Part shown: positions 9,451 to 21,859 of the stretch, in pieces
Layout of the letters: each line of letters begins with the position of its first letter
Position numbering within the stretch: position 1 is the stretch's first letter
NCBI RefSeq assembly: GCF_002119685.1
Contig: NZ_CP021108.1
Span: forward strand, 1,674,001-1,738,000
DNA: 64,000 nt
Direction of reading: 5' to 3'
From: Bordetella genomosp. 8
GTDB lineage: Bacteria > Pseudomonadota > Gammaproteobacteria > Burkholderiales > Burkholderiaceae_B
Notes under the pieces: generated by a model
Databases searched by the model: none
What the model was told of the DNA's origin: nothing
Seen by the model: only the letters and a program-made list of their open reading frames with translations
Made by a program: the position numbers and the translations under genes

Positions 9451-11781
9451 ATGTCCTATCCTTGCTTTTGCCGCGCGCCGTTGCTGGCGCGCCTGGCGGC
9501 CGGGCGCATGGGCGGCGCCTTGCTGCCCTTGCTCTTCGCCGCCGGCCCCTGCCTGGCGCAGGGCGCCGAACCTGCCCCCGCCACCCTGGCCACCGTCAGC
9601 GTCACCGCCGATGCCGAAGCGCCGCCGCCCACCGATCCCAATCTGCCGGCCACCGTCGAGTCGGTGACCCGCGACCAGTTCGGCAAATGGAACGTCGTCA
9701 ACAGCGAAGACGCCCTCAAGTACATGCCGAACCTGGCGGTACGCAAACGCTTCATCGGCGACCAGAACTCCATCATCGCCGTGCGCGGCACCAGCAATAG
9801 CCAGAGCGCGCGCGGCCTGGTCTACGCCGATGGCCTCTTGCTCAGCAACCTGCTGGGCAACAGTTTCACGTACCCGCCGCGCTGGTCCATGGTGGCGCCC
9901 GACGAGATCGATCGCGTCGACGTCATCTACGGGCCGTATTCGGCCCTCTATCCCGGCAATTCCCTGGGCGCCACCGTCCTGATCACCACGCGCATGCCGG
10001 ACAGCTTCGAGACGCACGCCGACGCCAAGGGCTATACGCAGCATTTCAGCCTGTTCGGCGTCGATCGTGACTACACCGGCGGCCAGGCGTCCGCCTCCAT
10101 CGGCGATCGCATCGGCAAGCTGTCCTACGTGCTCGGCGTCAGCCATCTGGAGAACACCAGCCAGCCCTTGCAGTTCGCGACCTTGCCGCGCTCCACCACG
10201 CCGGCGCGTCCCGGCGATACCCCCGTGACCGGTGCCCGCTACTACAACAACCAGACCGGTGCGCCCACCGTCGTGCTTGGCGTCAACGGCGAGGGCATCG
10301 AGCGCACCATCGAGGATCAGCTCAAGTTCAGGCTCCAATACGACTTCACCCCCACGCTGCAGGGTGGGGCGACGTTCGGCTATTGGCGCGACCGCTATCG
10401 CAGCGATACGTCGAGCTTTCTGCGCGACGCCGACGGCAACAAGGTGTACCAGGGCAGGGTGGACATCGGCGGGTATGAGTACAACATCCCGGCTTCCGCC
10501 CTGGCGCCCAGCCGTGGCGACAGCGAGAACTACCTGTACGGCCTCTCGCTGAAGACGCGCCATGCCACGGGCTGGAATGCGGAGGCCATCGCGTCCTACT
10601 ACGACGTCGCCCGCAACGTGGCGCGCAACGCCAACCAGGGCGGACCGGGCGACGGCCCGGGCACCGCCACGTATGGCGACGGCACCGGCTGGAAGACGCT
10701 GGACCTGCGATCGACCTACACCCAGGCGCCTTCGGTGTCGGGCCTTGCCGCGCATGACCTGGCCTTCGGCTACCACGTCGATAGCTATTTCTCGGATAGC
10801 CGGACCTACAACACGGACGACTGGTCGGACGGCGGCGCGGGTGCCTTCGCGAATGCGTTCAAGGGCCGCACGCAGACCCAGGCCTGGTATGCCCAGGATG
10901 CCTGGCGCTTCCTGCCACGCTGGAAGCTGGTGTACGGGCTGCGCTACGAAGACTGGCGCGCCTATGGCGGATCGCAGGCAGTAGGCAGCGTGCAGGTGCC
11001 TTACGCGAATGCCGACCAGCAGCACGTATCGCCCAAGGCGTCGCTATCCTTCGACGCGACCGAGGAACTGACGCTGCGCGCGTCCTTCGGGCGGGCATAT
11101 CGCTTCCCGACGGTGGGCGAGCTGTTCCAGGGCAAGATCAACGGCTCGACGCTGGTCAATAACAATCCCAACCTGCAACCGGAAAACGACCTGTCCAAGG
11201 AGCTGACGGCGGAATGGACCCACGGCAACGGCATCTATCGGGTGTCGCTGTTCCAGGACGACGTGAAGAACACCATCTTCAGCCAGACCGATACGACGGC
11301 CATCCCCAACGTGACCAGCTTCCAGAACATCGACAAGGTGCGATCGCGGGGCGTGGAAACCAGCTACCAGGGCCAGGACGTAGGCATCGATGGCCTGGAT
11401 GTCATCGCCAATGTCGCCTATACGCAATCGAAGATACTGGCCAATTCGCAGAATCCGGACTCGGTGGGCAAGTACTTCTATCGCATCCCGCTGTGGCGCG
11501 CCAATCTGGTGGGCACCTATCGTTTTGGCGACAAGGCGTCGCTGACCGGCGCCGTGCGTTATTCAGGCCGCCAGTACAACACGCTGACGAACCAGGACAG
11601 CAACCCGGACGTGTTCGGCGGCACCAGCAGCTATACCGTGGTCGATGCCAAGTTCACGTACAAGCTGAACCGCTACAGCGAGGTCAGCGTGGGCGTGGAC
11701 AACCTGTTCGACGAACGGTATTTCGTCTATCACCCTTATCCGGGCCGCACCTTGTACGTCGAAACCCGTTTGCACCTGTAG
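9451..11781 (+). CDS. TonB-dependent outer-membrane receptor, probably metal (copper) related
   Basis: The 776-residue protein starts with a signal peptide ending near CLAQG. It then has a plug domain (TLATVSVTAD; IIAVRGTSNSQSARGLVYADGLLL; VDVIYGPYSALYPGNSLGATVLI) and a long beta-barrel. The barrel ends in a YVETRLHL strand, with the conserved TonB-receptor C-terminal motif EVSVGVDNLFDERYF just before it. The start follows AGGAAA at 9441-9446. It imports a ligand across the outer membrane using TonB energy. The ligand is inferred to be copper or a copper chelate only from the Met/His-rich DUF2946 neighbour; a siderophore cannot be excluded. Confidence 0.9.
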   Translation: MSYPCFCRAPLLARLAAGRMGGALLPLLFAAGPCLAQGAEPAPATLATVSVTADAEAPPPTDPNLPATVESVTRDQFGKWNVVNSEDALKYMPNLAVRKRFIGDQNSIIAVRGTSNSQSARGLVYADGLLLSNLLGNSFTYPPRWSMVAPDEIDRVDVIYGPYSALYPGNSLGATVLITTRMPDSFETHADAKGYTQHFSLFGVDRDYTGGQASASIGDRIGKLSYVLGVSHLENTSQPLQFATLPRSTTPARPGDTPVTGARYYNNQTGAPTVVLGVNGEGIERTIEDQLKFRLQYDFTPTLQGGATFGYWRDRYRSDTSSFLRDADGNKVYQGRVDIGGYEYNIPASALAPSRGDSENYLYGLSLKTRHATGWNAEAIASYYDVARNVARNANQGGPGDGPGTATYGDGTGWKTLDLRSTYTQAPSVSGLAAHDLAFGYHVDSYFSDSRTYNTDDWSDGGAGAFANAFKGRTQTQAWYAQDAWRFLPRWKLVYGLRYEDWRAYGGSQAVGSVQVPYANADQQHVSPKASLSFDATEELTLRASFGRAYRFPTVGELFQGKINGSTLVNNNPNLQPENDLSKELTAEWTHGNGIYRVSLFQDDVKNTIFSQTDTTAIPNVTSFQNIDKVRSRGVETSYQGQDVGIDGLDVIANVAYTQSKILANSQNPDSVGKYFYRIPLWRANLVGTYRFGDKASLTGAVRYSGRQYNTLTNQDSNPDVFGGTSSYTVVDAKFTYKLNRYSEVSVGVDNLFDERYFVYHPYPGRTLYVETRLHL

Positions 11782-11818: not shown

Positions 11819-11848
11819 TTGACAGCGTGGCGCGGCAATCCGGATAAT
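11819..11848 (+). promoter_or_regulatory. Sigma-70 promoter of the amide-utilisation operon
   Basis: A consensus -35 TTGACA (11819-11824) lies 18 bases before a -10 GATAAT (11843-11848), predicting a start near 11855. The -10 sits in the palindrome CGGATAATCCG (11841-11851), which could also be an operator. A strong promoter followed by a terminator is the layout expected for an operon controlled by antitermination. Confidence 0.65.
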
Positions 11849-11884
11849 CCGTCCAGGTTCGCGACACAGCCGCCGCGTTCCGAA

Positions 11885-11924
11885 CACAGCAGGATTGCTG
11901 TGCAAACCACTGGCTATGAAAGCC
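11885..11924 (+). promoter_or_regulatory. Leader hairpins, candidate AmiR/ANTAR antitermination target
   Basis: CACAGC/GCTGTG (11885-11890 with 11897-11902) close a six-base loop AGGATT. GGCT/AGCC (11912-11915 with 11921-11924) close a five-base loop. The 3' arm of the second hairpin is also the start of the terminator stem, so the two structures exclude each other. ANTAR proteins are known to bind paired hexaloop hairpins with A1 and G4 in the loops. Here the first loop has A1 but A at position 4, and the second loop is one base short, so the match is imperfect. Confidence 0.45.
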
Positions 11925-11960
11925 CTCGACTCGCGCCTCAGGCGTGTTCGAGGGCTTTTT
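11921..11960 (+). terminator. Intrinsic terminator in the leader of the amidohydrolase operon
   Basis: AGCCCTCGA (11921-11929) pairs with TCGAGGGCT (11948-11956); an inner CGCC/GGCG stem caps it, and TTTTT then GTTTTT follow. It ends 16 bases before the amidohydrolase ATG with the ribosome site TTGGAG in between. It could end TonB-receptor transcripts, but its place inside the leader downstream of a promoter suggests an attenuator. Confidence 0.8.
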
Positions 11961-11975
11961 GTTTTTGGAGTTTCC

Positions 11976-12878
11976 ATGTCGTCTTACGATTCCGCCGGCC
12001 TCCCCCCGCCTGGCGAGCGCGTGTTCCCGGACACCGTGGTTGCCGCGGTGCAGATGGATTGCCGTATCGGCCAGAAGGCCGCCAATGTGGCGCAGTCGCT
12101 GGCATTGATGGAGCAGGCGGCGCGGCAGGGCGCGGCTATCGTCGTGCTGCCGGAACTGTGCAATACGGGCTATGTCTTCGACAGCCGGGCGGAAGCGTTC
12201 GACCAGGCGGAAAGCGTGCCGGACGGCCCCACGGCGCAGGCCTGGATCGCCGCGGCCGCGCGGCTGGGCATCTACATCGTGGCCGGCATCACCGAGCGCG
12301 CGGGCGAACGCCTGTACAACGCGGCGGTGGTGATAGGCCCGCGCGGCTATATGGGCACCTATCGCAAGCTGCACTTGTGGGGAGAGGAAAACCTGTTCTT
12401 CGAGCCGGGCGACCTGGGCCTGCCGGTCTTCGATACGGAGCATGGCCGGCTGGGTGTGGCGATCTGCTACGACGGCTGGTTCCCGGAGGTCTATCGGCTG
12501 CTTGCCGGACAAGGCGTCGATATCGTCTGCATGCCGACCAACTGGGTGCCCATGCCGGGCCAGGATCCGCGCCATCCGACCATGGCCAATACCCTCGCGA
12601 TGGCGGCGGCCCACAGCAATGGCCTGAACATCGTTTGCGCCGACCGCGTGGGCGTGGAGCGCGGCCAGCCCTTCCTGGGGCAGAGCCTGGTGGTCGGCGC
12701 GCAGGGCTGGCCGCTGGCGGGGCCCGCCAGTCCGGACAGGGAAGAGGTCCTCTATGCCGCGATCAACCTGAAGCGGTCGCGCGCCGCCCGCCATCTGAAT
12801 CCCTACAACGTCGTGCTGCGCGATCGGCGCGATGACCTTTACCGGATCGTGTCCGGGCGCGAATCCGCGCGGACATAG
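11976..12878 (+). CDS. Nitrilase-superfamily carbon-nitrogen hydrolase (probable amidase)
   Basis: The 300-residue enzyme has the complete nitrilase-superfamily triad: E60 in LPELCNTGY, K131 in YRKLHLW and C164 in AICYDGWFPE. Such enzymes hydrolyse an amide or nitrile C-N bond through a cysteine thioester. The start at 11976 follows TTGGAG; an upstream in-frame ATG at 11895 would place the leader hairpins inside the gene and is rejected. The ABC importer and the AmiC/AmiR regulators in the same operon point to a small amide as substrate. It is shorter than the AmiE amidase of Pseudomonas (about 346 residues), so it is not simply that protein. Confidence 0.88.
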   Translation: MSSYDSAGLPPPGERVFPDTVVAAVQMDCRIGQKAANVAQSLALMEQAARQGAAIVVLPELCNTGYVFDSRAEAFDQAESVPDGPTAQAWIAAAARLGIYIVAGITERAGERLYNAAVVIGPRGYMGTYRKLHLWGEENLFFEPGDLGLPVFDTEHGRLGVAICYDGWFPEVYRLLAGQGVDIVCMPTNWVPMPGQDPRHPTMANTLAMAAAHSNGLNIVCADRVGVERGQPFLGQSLVVGAQGWPLAGPASPDREEVLYAAINLKRSRAARHLNPYNVVLRDRRDDLYRIVSGRESART

Positions 12879-12967: not shown

Positions 12968-14131
12968 ATGAAAACCACCGCGACTTCCCTCCTATCCATC
13001 GTGCTGGCCGCGGCCGGCGTGCTGACGCTTCCCGCAACGGCGGCGGAGCCTATCCGTATCGGCGTTGCCGTCGGCTTGTCCGGCGCCAATAGCGTGGTCG
13101 CGCCGGCGGCCGTGCAATCGTCGCAACTGGCCGTCGACGAAATCAATGCGTCCGGCGGCATCCTGGGCCGCCAGGTGCAGCTGGAAATCGCCGACGACGG
13201 CTCTGGCGCGGTCGGTGCGCAGAAGGCTTTCGACACGCTGGTTTTCCAGAAGAAGGTCGATGCCGTCATCGGCATGGAAACCAGCGCGGCGCGCAGCGCC
13301 GGACTGCCCGTGGTGGCGCGCGGCAAGACGCCGTACATCTACACCTCGTTCTACGAAGGCCGCTCGTGCAGCAAGTGGCTGTACGTCAACGGCTGGGTGC
13401 CGGAGCAGCAGGTCGCGCCGGTCGTCGATTACTTCACCGGGCATGAAAAGGCCAAGACATTTTTCCTGGTGGGCAGCGATTACTCCTTCGGCCGTGGGAT
13501 GCTGGGTTTCACCCGCAAGTACATCGAGCAGAAGGGCGGCAAGGTCGTGGGCGAGGAATACCTGCCCATGGACGGCAGCGACTGGACCGCCGTGATCGCC
13601 AAGATCCGCGCCGCCAAGCCCGACGCGTTGATCAGCTCCACCGCGGGCGGCGCGCCCAACGTGTCGCTGGCCAAGCAGCTCAAGGCGGCCGGTATCGCGA
13701 TTCCCTACGGCAACCTGGCCATCGACGAGGGCACGGCCAAAACCATGGGCGACGTGGCGTCGGGCATGTATCTTTCGGCCTCCTATCTGACCGGCATCGA
13801 TAACGCGGGGAACAAGCGTTTCCTGGATGCGATGCGCAAGAAGTTCGGCGGCGAGCTGAAGACGCCTAACGAATTGTCGGAGCCGCAGTACGAGGCTTTC
13901 TTCCTGTACAAGGCCGCCGTCGAGAAGGCCGGCACCACCGACTCCGACAAGGTCATTCCGGCGCTGGCCCAGGTGTCCTACGACGGTCCGCGCGGGCCGG
14001 TCAGCATGGACAAGAGCCGGCATGCGGCCTTGAATATGCACCTGGGACAGATCCAGGCCGACGGTTCCGTCAAGATCCTGCAGACCTTCGCCGCGGTCGA
14101 TCCGGGTCCGCAGTGTCCCAACATCAAGTAA
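12968..14131 (+). CDS. ABC transporter substrate-binding protein, amide/urea-type branched-chain family
   Basis: This 387-residue periplasmic protein has a signal peptide (cleavage probably after ATAA near residue 26) and a type I binding fold: IRIGVAVGLSGANSVV, DEINASGGILGRQ and YTSFYEGRSCSKWLY. The YxSFYEG motif recurs in the AmiC-like protein encoded downstream (YCSFYEGFEYS), which links the transported ligand to the regulatory ligand. The fold family includes the urea (UrtA) and short-chain amide (FmdD) receptors. It is the second gene of the operon; the fused permease-ATPase, a second permease and a second ATPase follow. Confidence 0.9.
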   Translation: MKTTATSLLSIVLAAAGVLTLPATAAEPIRIGVAVGLSGANSVVAPAAVQSSQLAVDEINASGGILGRQVQLEIADDGSGAVGAQKAFDTLVFQKKVDAVIGMETSAARSAGLPVVARGKTPYIYTSFYEGRSCSKWLYVNGWVPEQQVAPVVDYFTGHEKAKTFFLVGSDYSFGRGMLGFTRKYIEQKGGKVVGEEYLPMDGSDWTAVIAKIRAAKPDALISSTAGGAPNVSLAKQLKAAGIAIPYGNLAIDEGTAKTMGDVASGMYLSASYLTGIDNAGNKRFLDAMRKKFGGELKTPNELSEPQYEAFFLYKAAVEKAGTTDSDKVIPALAQVSYDGPRGPVSMDKSRHAALNMHLGQIQADGSVKILQTFAAVDPGPQCPNIK

Positions 14132-14185: not shown

Positions 14186-15019
14186 ATGGGTCTGTTGCTG
14201 GATGTGCTGACCACGGCGGCCATGCTGTTCGTCGTGACCGTCGGCTTGATGGTGATCTTCGGCGTGATGAAGATCGTGAACTTCGCGCACGGGTCCTTGA
14301 TCACCCTGGGCGGCTACGTCAGCTACGTGGTCACCCGCCTGGGTCTGGATCCCTGGCTGGGCTGGCCGCTGGCCGTGCTGTGCGGCATCCTGGCCGGAAT
14401 GGCGATCGAATGGCTGGTGGTACGTCCCTTGTACCGGCGGCCGCTGGACGCCATCCTGGCCACCTGGGGCCTGGGCATCATCATCGGGCAACTGATCGTG
14501 CTCGCGTTCGGGCGCGAGGTGCAGTTCGCGGATGCGCCGCTGGCGGGCATCTGGAACCTGGGCGACATGGGCTATTCCGCCTATCGCATCCTGCTCATTC
14601 CCGTCGCCTTGGTGCTGTGGGCGCTGCTGGCCGCCTTGCTGAACGGTACGCGTTTCGGCGTGCGGACGCGCGCGGTGATCATGAACGAGCCGCTGGCCAG
14701 CGGCCTGGGCATCAACGCCTCGCGTATCCGCTTCATCACTTTCAGCCTGGGCGCGGGGCTGGGCACGCTGGGCGGTGCGCTGGTCACGCCGCTGTCCAGC
14801 GTCGACCCGAATATGGGCGTGGGCTGGCTGATCAGCGCCTTCATGCTGGTGATGGTGGCCGGGCATTCGATATCCAGCCTGATGCTGACGTGCCTGGTCT
14901 TCGGCGCCTGCCAGGTGCTGGTCAGCATATACGTGAATCCGGTCCTGGGCGGATTGACGATAGCCGTATTGGCCGCATTGACCTTGCGCGTGCGGCCCAA
15001 GGGGTTCGCGCATGAGTGA
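14186..15019 (+). CDS. Branched-chain-type ABC transporter permease (LivH/UrtB-like)
   Basis: The 277-residue protein has about eight hydrophobic segments and LivH-family landmarks: GLMVIFGVMKIVNFAHGSL near residues 18-36 and the RFGVRTRAVIMNEPLASGLG loop. It should form one half of the inner-membrane channel with the permease domain of the next gene. It starts 55 bases after the binding-protein gene; its stop overlaps the next start by 8 bases. The substrate is inferred to be a small amide from the operon context. Confidence 0.92.
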   Translation: MGLLLDVLTTAAMLFVVTVGLMVIFGVMKIVNFAHGSLITLGGYVSYVVTRLGLDPWLGWPLAVLCGILAGMAIEWLVVRPLYRRPLDAILATWGLGIIIGQLIVLAFGREVQFADAPLAGIWNLGDMGYSAYRILLIPVALVLWALLAALLNGTRFGVRTRAVIMNEPLASGLGINASRIRFITFSLGAGLGTLGGALVTPLSSVDPNMGVGWLISAFMLVMVAGHSISSLMLTCLVFGACQVLVSIYVNPVLGGLTIAVLAALTLRVRPKGFAHE

Positions 15020-16820
15020 TGCCACGATCGATCGCGACGCGGGGACGGACGCCGGTGCCGCCCGCCGTCACGCCAGCGGGCGCGGGCTGGCGGGATTGGC
15101 CGTCGCCGGCCTGGTCCTGGTGGCCGCGGGGCCTTTCCTGTTCGACACCTATTTGTTGAATGTTCTCATCAAGGCCTATTTCTTCGCCATCGCCGCCTTG
15201 ACCGTCGATGTGCTGTGGGGCTACACGGGCTACCTGACCTTCGGCCAGTCGGCGTTTTTCGGCATGGGTGCGTATGCGGCGGGACTGGCGTTCACCCATT
15301 ACGGGTTTTCTCCCGGCGTGGTGGCGCTGACCCTGCTCGCGGCGGTCGCCGGCACGGCGCTGCTGGCCGGCATCGTCGGCTGGCTGTCCTTTTACCGTGG
15401 CGCCTCGCCGTTCTTCGCCACGGTGATCTCGCTGGTGCTGCCCATCGTATTGACGCAGCTGGTGCTGTCGGGCGGCGAGTGGACGGGCTCCAGCTCGGGG
15501 CTGACGGGTTATGACAGCTTCGACCTGTCACTGCAGGGTTGGTACTGGGTGGCGGGCATCGCCCTGGCGGTGACCGGCGCCGCCGGTTGGCTGCTGGTGC
15601 GCAGCGATGCCGGCCGCGTGTTGACGGCGATCCGCGACAACGAGGTACGCTGCGAATACCTGGGGTTGCGCGTCTCCCGCGTGCGTATCCTGCTGCTGGT
15701 GGCAATGGCGGCGGTGGCCGGCCTGGCCGGTTTCGGCTATGGCGCGTTCAGCGGTGTGGTGGCGCCGGAGCTGACCGGTTTCGTGCTCGGCACGGAGCTG
15801 ATCATCTGGGTCGCGCTGGGCGGCCGCGGCACCCTGTGGGGGCCTTTGATCGGCGCCGTGTTGATCAACGTCGCCACCGCCTACCTGAGCGGCAGCATGC
15901 CCTTCGCGTGGCAACTGATACTGGGCGTGGCTTTTGTCGCCGTCATCCTGCTGCTGCCGCGCGGACTGGTGCCGGTCCTGCTGCGTCCTTTCGGCCTGGG
16001 CCGCCTGGCGCCGCGCATCCCGACGCTGGCGCGGCGAGATGCCCAGGCAAGGCCGCGCGCGGACGTGCCGGCGCTGGAAGTGCGCGACGTCAGCCGCAGC
16101 TTCGGTTCGTTGCACGTGCTGCGCGGCATCACGCTGACGGCGCGGCCTGGCGAGTTGGTGGGCCTGATCGGTCCCAATGGGGCCGGCAAGACCACGCTGA
16201 TGCGGGCATTGAGCGATGGCGCCGAACGCAGCGGCGGCAGCGTGGCGCTGTGCGGCCACGATATCGGCTGCCAGCCGCCGCAGGACTGCGTGCGCGATGG
16301 CCTGGGACGCAAATTCCAGAACGCCAATATCTTCGAGACGCTGACAGTCGCCGACAGCCTGCGCATCGCCGGCGCCTTGCATGACCGGCCGTCGCTGTGG
16401 CGGCGGTCGGACACGCTGCGCCTGCCGGACTATGCGCTGGAGGTATTGCGCGCCACCGATCTCGATCGCAAGCTGGGCGCCGTCGCGCGCGATCTTTCCC
16501 ATGGCGAGCAGCAGGCGCTGGAACTCGCGATGGTGCTCGCCCTGGCGCCGCGCGTTGTATTGCTGGACGAACCCACGGCGGGATTGAGCAGCCACGAGCG
16601 CGTCCGCGTCGGCGAAATCCTGGCCTCGCTGGCCCACCGCCATGGCTTGTGCTGCCTGCTGGTGGAGCACGATCTGGACTTTGTCGAGGAAGTCGCCACG
16701 CGCATCGTCGTGCTGCACCAGGGCGCCATCGTCATGGACGGCAGCTTCGCCGACGTGGTCGGGTCGGAGCTGGTCCGCACCATATACGCCGGCACCGGAC
16801 AGGCGGGAGGTACGCCATGA
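15012..16820 (+). CDS. Fused branched-chain-type ABC permease and ATPase (LivM-LivG fusion)
   Basis: This 602-residue protein joins two components that are usually separate. Residues about 25-325 are a LivM-type permease (VDVLWGYTGYLTFGQSAFFGMGAY; an RVRILLLVAMAAVAGLAGF region). Residues about 345-602 are a LivG-type ATPase with Walker A GPNGAGKT starting at 387, signature LSHGEQQALELAMVL and Walker B VVLLDEPTAGL. The reading frame runs through the junction with no stop or frameshift, and the linker RRDAQARPRADVPALEV is a plausible hinge. LivM-LivG fusions exist in other bacteria. It works with the LivH-like permease before it and the LivF-like ATPase after it. Confidence 0.93.
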   Translation: MSDATIDRDAGTDAGAARRHASGRGLAGLAVAGLVLVAAGPFLFDTYLLNVLIKAYFFAIAALTVDVLWGYTGYLTFGQSAFFGMGAYAAGLAFTHYGFSPGVVALTLLAAVAGTALLAGIVGWLSFYRGASPFFATVISLVLPIVLTQLVLSGGEWTGSSSGLTGYDSFDLSLQGWYWVAGIALAVTGAAGWLLVRSDAGRVLTAIRDNEVRCEYLGLRVSRVRILLLVAMAAVAGLAGFGYGAFSGVVAPELTGFVLGTELIIWVALGGRGTLWGPLIGAVLINVATAYLSGSMPFAWQLILGVAFVAVILLLPRGLVPVLLRPFGLGRLAPRIPTLARRDAQARPRADVPALEVRDVSRSFGSLHVLRGITLTARPGELVGLIGPNGAGKTTLMRALSDGAERSGGSVALCGHDIGCQPPQDCVRDGLGRKFQNANIFETLTVADSLRIAGALHDRPSLWRRSDTLRLPDYALEVLRATDLDRKLGAVARDLSHGEQQALELAMVLALAPRVVLLDEPTAGLSSHERVRVGEILASLAHRHGLCCLLVEHDLDFVEEVATRIVVLHQGAIVMDGSFADVVGSELVRTIYAGTGQAGGTP

Positions 16821-17536
16821 GAGGCGTGAGCGACACAATTGCATTGAAACTCGACGGGGTGACCAGCGGCTATGGCGCCTCGGTCGTCCTGCGCGACCTG
16901 TCGATGCAAATCGACGCTGGGCAGGCCGTGGCGCTGCTGGGCAAGAACGGCATGGGCAAGAGCACCCTGCTGAAGACCGTCATGGGCTATCTGCCCAAGC
17001 AGGGCGGCAGCGTGGCCCTGGGCGGCGAGGACATTACCCGCCTGCCCCCGCACCGGGTCGCCCGCAAGGGCGTGGCCTACGCCGCCCAGGAACAGGCGAT
17101 CTTCACCGAACTCAGCGTGCGCGACAACCTGCGCCTCGGCCTGGCCCGCGAAGCCGACTTCCCGGCGCGGTTCGCCGCCATCGAGCCGGTTTTCCCCGTG
17201 TTCAAGGACAGGCTACGGCAACCGGCAGGCACGCTGTCGGGCGGCGAGCAGAAAATGCTGCTGGTTGCACGCGCCCTGATGCTTCGTCCGTCCGTTATCC
17301 TTCTGGATGAGATCACGGAAGGATTGCAGCCTTCCGTCATCGAACGCCTGGCGCAGGCCCTGTTGTGGGAACGCCGGGAAAATGGCACCGCGATGCTGCT
17401 GATCGAACAGAACGTCGCCTTCGCCCTGCGCGTCACGGACCGCTTCCTGGTGTTGAAGCAGGGGCGGATAGTCGAACAGGGCGACGCCAGGGCGGACAGC
17501 GCGGCGGAAACGATATTTGCCCATTTGCGCGTGTAG
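16817..17536 (+). CDS. Branched-chain-type ABC transporter ATP-binding protein (LivF/UrtE-like)
   Basis: The 239-residue ATPase carries Walker A GKNGMGKS near residue 42, signature LSGGEQKMLLVARAL, Walker B VILLDEITEGLQPS and the switch region LLIEQNVAFAL. All are typical of LivF. It pairs with the ATPase domain of the preceding fusion protein and overlaps that gene by ATGA. It completes the importer; the AmiC-like sensor gene follows after 27 bases. Confidence 0.93.
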   Translation: MRGVSDTIALKLDGVTSGYGASVVLRDLSMQIDAGQAVALLGKNGMGKSTLLKTVMGYLPKQGGSVALGGEDITRLPPHRVARKGVAYAAQEQAIFTELSVRDNLRLGLAREADFPARFAAIEPVFPVFKDRLRQPAGTLSGGEQKMLLVARALMLRPSVILLDEITEGLQPSVIERLAQALLWERRENGTAMLLIEQNVAFALRVTDRFLVLKQGRIVEQGDARADSAAETIFAHLRV

Positions 17537-17563: not shown

Positions 17564-18706
17564 ATGACGGCAAGCAGGGGATCATCGGCGGATTGGCGCA
17601 TCGGCATACTGTTTTCGCGCACTGGCGTTACCCGCGTGACGGGGTCGGAGCACTTCCTGGGTACCGCGCTGGCGGTGGAGGAAATCAACGCCGCCGGCGG
17701 CGTGCTGGACCGCCAGCTGGCGCCGGTTTGCTACGACCCGGCCAGCGATCCGGCGGAATACCGGCGCCTGGCGACCAAGCTGATGGCCGACGACGACGTC
17801 AACGTCATCTTCGGCTGTTCGACGTCATCCAGCCGCAAGGCGGTCCTGCCGGTAGTGGAGCGCAACAACGGCCTGCTGTGGTACTGCTCGTTCTACGAGG
17901 GCTTCGAATATTCGCCCAACGTGGTGTACACGGGCGCGGTGCTGAACCAGAACGCCATGCAGCTGGCGGCCTATCTGTTGCAGCACAACGGCTCGCGCTT
18001 CTTTCTGGTGGGTTCGGACTACATCTATCCGCGCGAATCCAACCGGGTCATGCGCGACATGGTCGAGCAGCACGGCGGCGAGGTCCTGGACGAGGTCTAT
18101 CTGCCCTTGTCCGCCGGCGCCGCGGAAGTGGCCGAAGTCATCCGCGACATTCGCTCGGCGCAGCCGGAAGTCGTGTTCTCGACGGTGGTGGGGGACTCGG
18201 CGCGCATGCTGTACCGGCAGTACGCCGAAAGCGGCCTCGATCCTCACCGCATGCCCATCGCCAGCCTGTCCATGGCGGAAGAGGAAATCCGCCTGGTGGG
18301 GCCGCCCCTGTGCGCGGGCCACATCACCGCCGCCACCTATTTCAACTCCCTGGACAATGAAAGCAACCGCCGCTTCACCGCCTTGTGGCGTGCCCGCTAT
18401 GGCGACCGGCCGACCAGCACGTGGTCGGAGTCCGCCTACAACCAGGTCCATCTGTTCGCCCGGGCGCTGGAGCGCACCGGCAGCCTCGACCCCGCCAGGC
18501 TGGTTCGCATGGCACACTCGGTGCGTTACGATTCGCCCGAAGGTCTCCTGGCCATCGATTCGGAAAACAATCATTGCCTGCTGACTCCGCGTATCGGAGT
18601 CTGCCGCGAGGACGGCCAGTTCGATGTGGTGTGGCAGGGGGCGGAGCCGGTCAGGCCGGATCCCTATCTGTCCACTTTCGGCCTCGCGGAATTCTGGCTG
18701 AAGTAA
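17564..18706 (+). CDS. amiC: AmiC-like amide-sensing negative regulator
   Basis: The 380-residue protein has the same type I periplasmic-binding fold as the transporter receptor upstream but no signal peptide, so it should stay in the cytoplasm. It matches the AmiC family: RIGILFSRTGVTRVTGSEHF near the start, NVIFGCSTSSSRKAVLP and LWYCSFYEGFEYSPNVVYTG. AmiC is known to hold AmiR inactive and release it when amide binds. The amiR-like gene follows after 4 bases, as in Pseudomonas. The specific ligand cannot be read. Confidence 0.92.
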   Translation: MTASRGSSADWRIGILFSRTGVTRVTGSEHFLGTALAVEEINAAGGVLDRQLAPVCYDPASDPAEYRRLATKLMADDDVNVIFGCSTSSSRKAVLPVVERNNGLLWYCSFYEGFEYSPNVVYTGAVLNQNAMQLAAYLLQHNGSRFFLVGSDYIYPRESNRVMRDMVEQHGGEVLDEVYLPLSAGAAEVAEVIRDIRSAQPEVVFSTVVGDSARMLYRQYAESGLDPHRMPIASLSMAEEEIRLVGPPLCAGHITAATYFNSLDNESNRRFTALWRARYGDRPTSTWSESAYNQVHLFARALERTGSLDPARLVRMAHSVRYDSPEGLLAIDSENNHCLLTPRIGVCREDGQFDVVWQGAEPVRPDPYLSTFGLAEFWLK

Positions 18707-18710
18707 CGCC

Positions 18711-19322
18711 ATGAGCAGCATACGCCGCCTCTACGAAGATCTGCGCAGCATCAGCGTCGCGGTGGTCCATCCGCCGGGCGAAGACCGCGACCTGCTGATC
18801 GAGCAGCTCAAGCGCATCGGCTGCCGCCTGCAGGTGCTCTGGCCGTATTGCCAGGAGCCGCCGCGCGGTGCCGACGTGGTGTTCTTCCACTTGTCGCAGG
18901 ACATGCCCAGCGGCGGCATGTGGTGCGCCAGCGCGACCGACGCGACCCTGATCGCGCTGTCCGACTATGAAAGCCCGACGACGCTCAAGCTGCTGCTGGA
19001 CAGCAGCGCCCATGGCGTCCTCACCAAGCCTTTCCGCTCGTCCGGCGTGTTGAGCACACTGGTGCTGGCACGATCGGCGCAGGGTTTCCAGCAGCGCCAG
19101 CAGGCCAAGATCCAGAAACTGGAAGCCACCATCAAGTCGCGGCGCCAGATCGACAAGGCGATCAAGGTGCTGGTCGATCATCAAGGCATGGATGAGGTGA
19201 AGGCCTACGAACACATGCGGGCGCGCGCGACCAGCCTGAGGGTGACCGTGGCGGAAGTCGCGGCCATGGTCATCGATGCGCAGGAAGTCATGGAAAAGCT
19301 GGGGTTGGGGCGCCCGGGATAG
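18711..19322 (+). CDS. amiR: AmiR-like ANTAR-domain transcription antiterminator
   Basis: This 203-residue protein has an N-terminal pseudo-receiver domain (about residues 10-125), a coiled-coil stretch (QQRQQAKIQKLEATIKSRRQ) and a C-terminal three-helix ANTAR domain. The ANTAR part spans IDKAIKVLVDHQGMDEVKAY and TSLRVTVAEVAAMVIDAQE (about 145-195). ANTAR domains bind RNA hairpins and prevent terminator folding. The obvious target is the leader before the amidohydrolase gene at 11976. It is the last gene of the operon; about 180 bases without a clear gene separate it from the PAS kinase. Confidence 0.93.
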   Translation: MSSIRRLYEDLRSISVAVVHPPGEDRDLLIEQLKRIGCRLQVLWPYCQEPPRGADVVFFHLSQDMPSGGMWCASATDATLIALSDYESPTTLKLLLDSSAHGVLTKPFRSSGVLSTLVLARSAQGFQQRQQAKIQKLEATIKSRRQIDKAIKVLVDHQGMDEVKAYEHMRARATSLRVTVAEVAAMVIDAQEVMEKLGLGRPG

Positions 19323-19501
19323 CGGCGGCGCACGCTGTTACCCCATTTCGCGGCAAACTATGCTGCCCGCGGTGAACGGCGCGGGCGGAATCCCGCGCGT
19401 CGCGCGTCTCGCCCATAAGAACACATCCGGCGGGACGGCGCGGTTGAGCAGGCAGGGCAGGTAACTTGCTGGTATCCGTCGTGGATGCGCAAGGAGGCGT
19501 G

Positions 19502-21859
19502 ATGAGCCAAGTAGACAGGGAGCGGCGCGAAGCCACGGACCGCGTTGCCCGTGCCTTGCTGGAAAGCGCGACGGACTTCGCCATTTTCACGGTCGATCTG
19601 GCGCTGGTCGTCACCAGCTGGAACGCGGGCGCCCGCCATTTGTTCGGCTGGGAAGAGGAAGAAGCCCTGGGCGCCGATTCGTCGATGATCTTCACGCCGG
19701 AGTCGCGCGATCGCGGCGACCACCTGACGGAAGCGGAGACGGCTCGCGTGCACGGCCGCGCCGAGGACGAGCGATGGCACCTGCGCAAGGATGGCTCGAT
19801 GCTGTGGGCGTCGGGACTGATGCAGCCCTTCCTGGACGACATCACCGGTGAACACATCGGCTACCTGAAGATCGTGCGCGACCGCACGGAACAGCACCTG
19901 GCGGAGAACCGCGCCAAGGCCGTCGACGCACGTTTCCGCGCCCTGGTGGAAAGCTCGCCGCAGATGACGTTCTTCACCGACGCCAAGGGGCGCGTGATCT
20001 ACACCAGCCCGTACTGGGCCCGTTACACCGGTTGGGACCAGCAGGACGGGCAGCGCGGCGACTGGACCGAATCCCTCCATCCCGAAGACCGCCTGCCGCT
20101 GCAGCAGGCCTGGCGCGCCGCCATGGCGAACGGCACGGGCTGCGAGATGGAGATCCGCTTCAGGTGCGCGGCCGACGAGAGCTGGCGCTGGTTCATGGCG
20201 CGCGCCGCGCCCATCGAAGAGGATGGCCGGGTCAGCGGCTGGCTCATCATCGCCTTCGACATCGACCTGGTGGTGGCATCGCGCAACGATTTGCGTCGCA
20301 GCCAGAAGCTGTTGCTGAGCGAGGTGGCGCGCGGCAAGGCAGAGCGCGACCGCACCTGGCAGCTCGCCAACGACCTGATGGTGGTGACGGATTTCGATGG
20401 CTACGTGCTCGACGCCAACCCGGCGTGGACCGCGCGGCTGGGGTGGCAGCATGAAGAACTGCTCGGCAACGACATCCTGGGACTGGTCCACCCCGACTAC
20501 AGTTCGCTGGCGCAGAACCAGCTCGATCGCCTGCGGCGGGGCCACGCCGCGTCGCGTTTCGTGTGCGAATGCCGGCATCGGGACGGCAGCTACCGCACGC
20601 TGTCTTGGACCGCCGTCCCCGGCGACGGCCTGGTGCATGCCGTGGCCCAGGACGTCACCGCGGAAAACGAAGCCACCGCCGAGCTGGGACTGGCGCAGGA
20701 AGCGCTGCGCCAGTCGCAGAAAATGGAAGCGGTGGGACAGCTGACCGGCGGCATCGCGCACGACTTCAACAATCTGCTGACCGGCATCATGGGTGCGCTG
20801 CAGCTCATGCAGAAGCGCCTGGAGCGCGGCCAACCCATGGACATGCTGCGCTACACCGACATGGCGATGGAGTCGGCCAAGCGCGCGGCGGCGCTGACGC
20901 ACCGGCTGCTGGCGTTCTCGCGGCGCCAGCCATTGGCGCCCAAGCCCACCCAGCCGAACCGGCTGGTGGGCAACCTGACGGAACTGTTCGAGCGCACGCT
21001 GGGCGAAAGAATCGCCCTGGAGGTCGATCTGCAGGCGGATCTCTGGAATGTGCTGTGCGATGCCCACCAGCTGGAGAACGCCATCCTGAACCTGGTAATC
21101 AATGCGCGCGACGCCATGCCCGACGGCGGCACGCTGACCATCACCACGCGCAATGTGGATCTGGACAATATCGCGGTGGCGCGCGCCGTCATCCTGACCG
21201 CGGGCGAGTACGTCTGTATCTCCGTGGCGGACACCGGCCTGGGCATGCCGGCCGAAGTCGCCGCCAAGGCCTTCGAGCCTTTCTTCAGTACCAAGCCGCA
21301 GGGCGAAGGGACGGGGCTGGGGCTGTCCATGGTCTATGGCTTCGTGCGGCAGTCCGGCGGCCATACGGACCTGGACAGCCGGCCCGGCGAGGGAACCGCC
21401 ATCCGCATGTATCTGCCCCGTTACGCCGGGCCGCTCGTCGAGGAATCCGCCGCCGGCACGTTGCAGGACGGTCCAGCGCCGCGGCCGCCGCCACGGCATC
21501 CCCTGGTGCTCGTGGTGGAGGACGACCCGCGCGTGCGCAATCTGCTGGTCGAGGTCCTGCAGGACCAGCAGTGCCGTGTCGTGGAAGCGGCGGATGGACT
21601 GTCGGGCCTGCGCATCCTGCAGGAAACGCCGAGCATCCAGCTGGTGCTCAGCGACATCGGCCTGCCGGGCATGGACGGCAGGCTCATGGTCGAGAAAGCA
21701 CGCGCTTCGAATCCCGGGCTGAAGGTGATCCTGATGACCGGTTATGCGCAAAGCCTGGCCTTGACCGAAGGCCTGCGCGAGCCGGGCATCGAGCTGGTCA
21801 CCAAGCCCTTCGGCATCGACGAAATCACGCGGCGCATCTGCGCCATCCTGGGCAGTTGA
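19502..21859 (+). CDS. Hybrid PAS-domain sensor histidine kinase with C-terminal receiver
   Basis: The 785-residue protein has no clear transmembrane segment. It has three PAS domains (around residues 15-135, 140-260 and 280-400), a HisKA domain with phospho-acceptor H420 in GGIAHDFNNLL, a HATPase_c domain (NLVINARDAMPDGG; GEGTGLGLSMVYGF) and a receiver with D718 in LSDIGLPGMDG and TKPFG at its end. The start is the ATG 5 bases after AAGGAGG (19491-19497); a TTG at 19466 is less likely. The H-D-F-N-N-L-L box is typical of soluble PAS hybrid kinases. No separate response regulator lies nearby, so its output partner is unknown. Confidence 0.92.
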   Translation: MSQVDRERREATDRVARALLESATDFAIFTVDLALVVTSWNAGARHLFGWEEEEALGADSSMIFTPESRDRGDHLTEAETARVHGRAEDERWHLRKDGSMLWASGLMQPFLDDITGEHIGYLKIVRDRTEQHLAENRAKAVDARFRALVESSPQMTFFTDAKGRVIYTSPYWARYTGWDQQDGQRGDWTESLHPEDRLPLQQAWRAAMANGTGCEMEIRFRCAADESWRWFMARAAPIEEDGRVSGWLIIAFDIDLVVASRNDLRRSQKLLLSEVARGKAERDRTWQLANDLMVVTDFDGYVLDANPAWTARLGWQHEELLGNDILGLVHPDYSSLAQNQLDRLRRGHAASRFVCECRHRDGSYRTLSWTAVPGDGLVHAVAQDVTAENEATAELGLAQEALRQSQKMEAVGQLTGGIAHDFNNLLTGIMGALQLMQKRLERGQPMDMLRYTDMAMESAKRAAALTHRLLAFSRRQPLAPKPTQPNRLVGNLTELFERTLGERIALEVDLQADLWNVLCDAHQLENAILNLVINARDAMPDGGTLTITTRNVDLDNIAVARAVILTAGEYVCISVADTGLGMPAEVAAKAFEPFFSTKPQGEGTGLGLSMVYGFVRQSGGHTDLDSRPGEGTAIRMYLPRYAGPLVEESAAGTLQDGPAPRPPPRHPLVLVVEDDPRVRNLLVEVLQDQQCRVVEAADGLSGLRILQETPSIQLVLSDIGLPGMDGRLMVEKARASNPGLKVILMTGYAQSLALTEGLREPGIELVTKPFGIDEITRRICAILGS

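Follow-up and report, generated by a model that had tools for sequence, protein, structure and literature searches.

A conserved two-hairpin leader with a pentaloop P2, very probably an AmiC/AmiR-controlled antitermination switch, in Bordetella genomosp. 8

A putative amide-utilisation operon in the window (the whole 64,000-nucleotide stretch of DNA analysed here) is preceded by a leader that very probably works as an AmiC/AmiR-controlled transcription-antitermination switch of the ANTAR type. This view rests on the anatomy and conservation of the leader, on compensatory changes in P1 and the terminator, on predicted folds that exclude one another and on the gene content of the operon. The leader nevertheless stands outside the published ANTAR-RNA consensus, as a hexaloop in the second hairpin (P2) and a G at loop position 4 (G4) both fail. 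The type of switch is already known; what is new is the U-A-closed pentaloop P2 of this clade, which the published rule bars.

Anatomy of the leader and genes of the operon

All parts of the leader lie on the forward strand. A sigma-70-like promoter, read directly, consists of TTGACA (11819-11824), an 18-nt spacer and GATAAT (11843-11848), and would place the transcription start near 11855. It is followed by the P1 hairpin CACAGC[AGGATT]GCTGTG (11885..11902), a 6-bp stem whose C:G-closed six-base loop carries A at positions 1 and 4, and, after a linker of 9 nt, by the P2 (antiterminator) hairpin GGCT[ATGAA]AGCC (11912..11924), a pentaloop on a 4-bp stem. An intrinsic terminator (11919..11958) is formed by the arms AAAGCCCTCGA (11919-11929) and TCGAGGGCTTT (11948-11958), and its 5' arm includes the 3' arm of P2, AGCC (11921-11924), as it does in the 33 aligned leaders. 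The T-rich U-tract (11956..11966) and the ribosome-binding site GGAG (11967..11970) were read directly, and the start codon ATG at 11976 is the 16th base past the first T-run. An earlier note on this DNA had described the same arrangement of promoter, two hairpins, overlapping terminator and spacing of ribosome-binding site and ATG, and every part of it was found again on re-reading.

The leader opens a seven-gene operon, with amiC-amiR as its last two genes, all on the forward strand. Gene 1 (11976..12878) encodes a carbon-nitrogen hydrolase of the nitrilase superfamily (PF00795). Its scores for the 11 NCBIfam models listed all stay under the respective cut-offs, and by model it is not the aliphatic amidase AmiE (NF009802, 55.8 bits versus a cut-off of 427). 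It is followed by genes for a UrtA-like substrate-binding protein (12968..14131), a UrtB-like permease (14186..15019), a UrtC-UrtD-like permease-ATPase fusion (15012..16820) and a UrtE-like ATPase (16817..17536). The AmiC-like amide sensor (17564..18706) matches P. aeruginosa AmiC 1pea with 300.7 bits as its second-best PDB match, the top match being 8tg1, an extracellular ligand-binding receptor (303.1 bits). The AmiR-like ANTAR antiterminator (18711..19322) carries the Pfam domains AmiR_N (126 bits, cut-off 27) and ANTAR (43.7 bits, cut-off 27.3); its best PDB match is AmiR 1qo0 (92.9 bits), and the nearest AmiR found, at 94% identity, belongs to a cluster of proteins that takes its name from Bordetella flabilis. 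Pfam domains and PDB matches thus uphold the AmiC-like and AmiR-like assignments that had been proposed for the last two genes.

Amide utilisation is suggested by the nitrilase-superfamily hydrolase, the urea/amide-type ABC transporter and an asparaginase in many relatives. In nine loci read (L005, L007, L009, L013, L014, L017, L022, L025 and L031), an extra gene of 311-355 codons is located between the ATPase gene and amiC. Pfam asparaginase was found in 4/4 of those scanned, and the remaining five have the start motif TGGTIAMK in common. This extra gene is a hint that asparagine or similar amides serve as substrates. Directly 3' of amiR, the window contains a gene for a hybrid histidine kinase that carries PAS domains plus a receiver (19466-21859), which as a query gave only partial, low-identity matches in the fetched loci of relatives.

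Chance expectation within the window

The promoter-like site alone is no proof, because one such site was found in 10-20 kb where shuffles give 1.2. A composite score for P1, P2 and terminator reached 51.5 at the leader, the highest value on either strand of the window (runner-up, 39.1), and was unmatched by 40 surrogates, each 64 kb long and drawn from a first-order Markov model, which peaked at 48.4. The folding energy of the leader is -52.8 kcal/mol versus -38.1 +/- 3.6 kcal/mol in shuffles, of which 1/200 was equally low. The stretch ending with P2, folded alone, is of ordinary stability (z -1.1; 29/200 shuffles equally low). The family pattern described below occurs once in the window and in none of 100 shuffles.

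Conservation and covariation in relatives

Relatives were collected by scanning 84,980 species, each represented by a single genome, with an AmiR alignment and two peptide patterns. This yielded 34 loci, whose genera we take to belong without exception to the Burkholderiales. Thirty loci possess the nitrilase gene, and from the regions upstream of it, which were read in all 30, a leader pattern (CAGC-loop-GCTG, linker, GGCTAT-N3-AGCC) was built. A single match each was found in 32/34 fetched loci; L032 and L033, both with partial amiR matches only, gave none. P1, P2, the overlap of P2 with the terminator and the terminator itself are kept in these 32/34 loci, in line with the conservation that the earlier note had asked relatives to display, and amiC-amiR lie downstream of the leader in 32/32. 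In L005 and L008 the leader precedes permease genes in a fetched piece that contains no nitrilase gene; the nitrilase gene of L005 follows a separate copy of the leader at a more upstream position. Because the rows were collected by pattern, all 33 of them, window included, have identical core letters, and we count this invariance as 32/34 loci rather than as 33 independent confirmations.

Pairing was counted in the 29 distinct rows of the alignment. The P1 and terminator cells are paired in 99.8%, versus 31-54% with slid partners. The outer P1 pair is GC in 20 rows, UA in six and AU in one, with one mismatch and one gap. All 9 counted terminator pairs are formed in 29/29 rows, and two of these stem pairs vary on both sides (CG 21, UA 8 each). 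The compensatory pairs of P1 and terminator are located outside the collecting pattern; they track lineages and so represent few events. By contrast, the P2 stem does not vary among the aligned leaders and therefore provides no covariation support for P2 itself. The covariation analysis that had been suggested for this leader supports P1 and the terminator and is silent on P2.

Mean pairwise identity is 0.714 over the leader element, a figure raised by the shared pattern, versus 0.24 in the preceding 84 bases, 0.184 in the 84 before those and 0.485 over an 84-base stretch where the next gene begins. A promoter-like site with at least 9/12 matches is present within 110 nt upstream of P1 in 24/33 leaders, compared with 0/33 in the next 110 nt upstream and 12/660 shuffles; within the same 110 nt, five leaders have a site with only 8/12 matches and four have none. 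A second, shortened amiR, with a match starting at residue 71, was observed in Variovorax sp. OV700 (L032 and L074), with no matching operon or leader within the fetched stretch.

Loops of P1 and P2 and the published ANTAR-RNA rule

Current descriptions of ANTAR targets, and searches for them, assume paired hexaloops in which A1 and G4 are present. In the consulted parts of the literature, the criteria are a pair of stem-loops, each with no fewer than 3 bp, separated by a linker of 2-25 nt (PMC8164766), with hexaloops carrying A1 and G4 (PMC8164766, PMC3369931); the search in PMC8164766 tolerated a single point variation. The stems and the linker of the window's leader (6 bp, 9 nt and 4 bp) fall within these limits, and the 3' arm of P2 lies within the 5' arm of the terminator. 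The loops do not conform. P2 reads GGCU-AUNNN-AGCC in all 33 leaders, and closing its loop by C:G instead gives seven bases rather than six. A1 together with G4 in both loops is likewise absent, as the window's P1 is A1/A4 and its P2 is no hexaloop.

Between CAGC and GCTG of P1 there are six bases in 19/33 leaders and seven in 14/33. The loops are AATAATT (8), AACATT (6), AATGATT (6), AACATC (4), AGCATT (3), AATATT (3), AACAGC (2) and, in one, AGGATT. All 33 start with A. Position 4 is occupied by A in 27 loops and by G in the other six, which are all seven-base loops. In the minimum-energy fold of the window's P1, A1 pairs with U6 and leaves four loop bases. Inner A-U pairs could shorten most P1 loops in a comparable way; six of the 19 six-base loops (AACATC, AACAGC) are incapable of an inner pair between A1 and position 6. 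The P2 loops are ATGAA (18), ATAGA (6), ATAAC (4), ATATG (2) and ATTGA, ATTAA and ATAAG (1 each). If the U-A pair is left uncounted, P2 becomes a seven-base loop with G (18), A (13) or T (2) at position 4.

The earlier note had remarked that P1 has A1 without G4 and that P2 has five bases, which is correct for the C:G-closed reading, and had treated both as deviations from the consensus. These deviations are real in the window, but they are not quirks of a single leader, being clade-wide in the 33 leaders. Further loci with AmiR or NasT-like proteins (51 stretches, six more, and eight plasmid regions) reveal two other kinds of P2: 1) GGCT[4 bases]AGCC, the form seen in sister groups; and 2) hexaloops starting with A, in which position 4 is often A. 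In the main texts of open-licence papers we found no description of short-loop leaders. A clade that departs only from the A1/G4 hexaloop rule suggests that this rule is drawn too narrowly to cover AmiR-type regulators. Leaders with hexaloops, tetraloops and pentaloops form a natural series on how ANTAR proteins read RNA, with residues and loops to swap.

Predicted folding and proposed mechanism

In folds of the growing transcript, P2 is predicted up to 11952 and the terminator by 11956. The terminator is the predicted optimum of the full-length leader in 33/33 cases, and P2 is formed in 31/33 predicted transcripts ending 8 nt past P2. Keeping P2 is predicted to cost 3.0 to 12.4 kcal/mol among the 33 leaders, a price that a bound protein would have to pay.

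The consulted parts of PMC3369931 and PMC3369936 describe, for other members of the family, how an amide makes AmiC let go of AmiR and how P1 and P2 act. For the window's leader we infer the start site, the AmiC signal, AmiR binding, read-through and feedback as follows. Transcription would begin near 11855. Without inducer, AmiC would retain AmiR, the terminator would displace P2, and most transcripts would end at about 11960. An amide-like inducer would cause AmiC to release AmiR, and the ANTAR dimer of AmiR would bind P1 and P2 as they emerge. With P2 held closed, the 5' arm of the terminator would be withheld and the operon read through. Read-through would cover amiC and amiR, and positive feedback is likely because these genes close the operon and 10-20 kb contains no second promoter-like site. 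The proposal that AmiR acts here by antitermination had been made from the window alone; the conserved leader and the presence of amiC and amiR in the operon now support it.

Alternative explanations

The hairpin could be a mere terminator of the upstream TonB-receptor gene, which ends at 11781 on the same strand, or a constitutive insulator, with P1 and P2 idle. The strength of the terminator would suit this role. However, a promoter-like site separates the receptor gene from the terminator, P1 and GGCTAT are conserved though a terminator does not need them, and a search for the receptor at E 1e-10 gave nothing in the 34 fetched stretches, each reaching about 2-4 kb upstream of the leader, while the leader stays with the operon. 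We regard this explanation as extremely improbable. A ligand-binding riboswitch, or another RNA-based attenuator acting without AmiR, would likewise show up as conserved RNA ahead of a metabolic operon, folding into structures that exclude one another. Yet Rfam, at gathering and relaxed thresholds, gave no family at gathering score and three weak microRNA-family matches far below it; the conserved core consists of two short hairpins without a large aptamer; and an ANTAR gene within the operon argues against an attenuator free of AmiR. Such a device is thus very improbable here. Against control by AmiR antitermination stand the following: 1) the A4 of P1 and the non-hexaloop P2 of the window, as A1 and G4 matter in both loops of the EutV system according to the consulted part of PMC3369931; 2) the solved complex being that of EutV, to which the window's AmiR is only distantly related (28.5 bits); 3) the four leaders without a promoter-like site and the five with 8/12 matches; and 4) the invariant P2 stem. 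Control by AmiR antitermination remains by far the most probable explanation.

A further proposal, compatible with AmiR antitermination, is that AmiR and the P2 loop evolved together, from Met172 with a hexaloop to Thr with four or five bases. In the consulted part of PMC8934654, G4 of the EutV-bound RNA stacks on Tyr164, with contacts from Arg142, Lys149 and Glu160, and Met172 may plug the RNA loop. An ungapped alignment of the window's AmiR to EutV 6wsh equates Tyr166, Arg144 and Glu162 with EutV Tyr164, Arg142 and Glu160, and places Ile151 and Thr174 at the positions of Lys149 and Met172. In EutV numbering, the contacts R142, K147, E160, Y164, R168 and R175 are kept, and K143, K149, M172, N173 and R177 are replaced by Arg, Ile, Thr, Ser and Thr, respectively. 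Among AmiR genes of the Thr172 type (one with Lys, L025) that have a leader, the P2 loop is short in 50/50, window included, with five bases in 33 and four in 17. The Thr rows without a leader (L032, L033 and L074) are incomplete genes without exception, two of these rows representing one gene, and no leader was found at L080, which has Gln at the Met172 position. With the prediction fixed before 12 further plasmid loci were read, 7/7 held-out Thr loci had GGCT[4-5]AGCC, although five of them (L245, L246, L247, L248 and L252) are near loci already seen. Of the four held-out Met loci, L255 fits, L256 contradicts, L249 has no candidate, and L253 has a weak candidate that was not accepted; no leader was found at the held-out Leu locus L254. 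In total, the short P2 loop GGCT[4-5]AGCC accompanies 57/57 Thr/Lys AmiR genes with a leader (window included), and an A1 hexaloop is present in 12/13 Met172 loci with an accepted leader, acceptance being by eye and 36/49 Met loci having none, some of them with weak candidates.

The exception lies on plasmid pB of Ancylobacter polymorphus (L256, 10640-10720), where P2 is GGCT[AGGT]AGCC despite Met172 and Lys149 in AmiR; this short loop is possibly an independent gain or an intermediate. A strict coupling of Met172 to hexaloops was rejected as a rule because of this locus. Lys149 was rejected as the deciding residue, since Met172 rows also carry Val, Thr, Ile or Gln there. Two AmiR trees, both from quick searches, place the Thr group almost in a single clade, interrupted by long-branch Met rows (P. 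aeruginosa AmiR among them in the second tree), and in both the pentaloop rows form one clade (33 rows, support 95; thinned to 18, support 96). Only 1 independent Thr/Met contrast was found on well-supported branches, essentially one evolutionary event, and co-evolution thus has no statistical support. The match of Thr172 with short loops, with its one counterexample, suggests co-evolution of AmiR and the loop, a proposal that we hold tentatively and consider rather doubtful. It would mean, with the same hesitation, that a large proteobacterial AmiR branch has a changed ANTAR code, in which the plugging Met and the G4-contacting Lys were replaced while the A1 hexaloop gave way to a U-A-closed loop of four, then five bases. 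If this were true, searches demanding two hexaloops would miss whole classes of leaders.

Comparison with known systems

The amiE leader of P. aeruginosa resembles the window's in having an AmiC-like sensor, an AmiR-like ANTAR protein, P1 and P2, and a terminator overlapping P2. In contrast to amiE, the operon in the window begins with a hydrolase gene from a different branch of the nitrilase superfamily and continues with genes for a urea/amide-type ABC transporter, and amiC-amiR stand last. Both amiE loops are A1/G4 by the description in PMC3369936, as far as consulted, whereas the window has a P2 pentaloop and A4 in P1. The eut leaders controlled by EutV in E. faecalis likewise contain two hairpins, the second exclusive with a terminator, and an ANTAR protein (PMC3369931); in the consulted parts of PMC3369931 and PMC8934654, EutV differs in being activated by phosphorylation, in its A1/G4 hexaloops and in having Lys149/Met172 where the window's AmiR has Ile/Thr. 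The NasR-nasF system of Klebsiella oxytoca shares ANTAR antitermination, a nitrogen operon and a P1 loop closed by C:G, and differs by a nitrate-sensing NIT domain in the same protein and a SELEX preference for A1/G4 hexaloops, according to the consulted parts of PMC7496416 and PMC3369936.

The AmiC/AmiR leaders with tetraloops (Rhizobium, Comamonas, Cupriavidus, Paracoccus and Paraburkholderia plasmids) share with the window a GGCT...AGCC P2 and a Thr172-type AmiR, and differ in their four-base P2 loop. Their P1 has G4 in many cases (AGGGCT, AACGAT) and lacks it in some (AGGAAT, AGGATT). At several of these loci, amiC-amiR are located upstream of the leader and not inside the operon. At the plasmid loci L076, L078, L246, L252, L254 and L256, AmiC/AmiR are linked with urease genes and urea/amide transporters. 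Plasmid pBN4 of Paraburkholderia aromaticivorans (L255) carries two divergent hexaloop leaders, at about 4682 (minus strand) and 4929 (plus strand), with one amiR; one precedes an aliphatic-amidase gene and the other apparently a cytosine-permease gene.

Copy number per genome

A covariance model of the leader was used to score the best 150 first-look candidates in each clade genome. Matches of at least 80 bits were found once in 14/15 clade genomes and twice in the 15th (Acidovorax, G008), and all other matches among the best 150 candidates were below 27 bits. When 399 genomes of the same order were searched under stricter filters with 11 candidates scored per genome, matches above 35 bits appeared only in G001, itself one of the 399; AmiR_N was matched in 25/399. 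The idea of a regulon is unsupported within the clade, strong matches being confined to the operon. In Acidovorax sp. A1169 (L244), the reverse strand contains two complete leaders (P2 at 3968 and 9385). Both have a promoter-like site of their own, and the gene cluster that they share contains just one amiR. One leader is located before the nitrilase gene and the other before permease genes; the presence of two full copies suggests that the switch can be moved as a unit.
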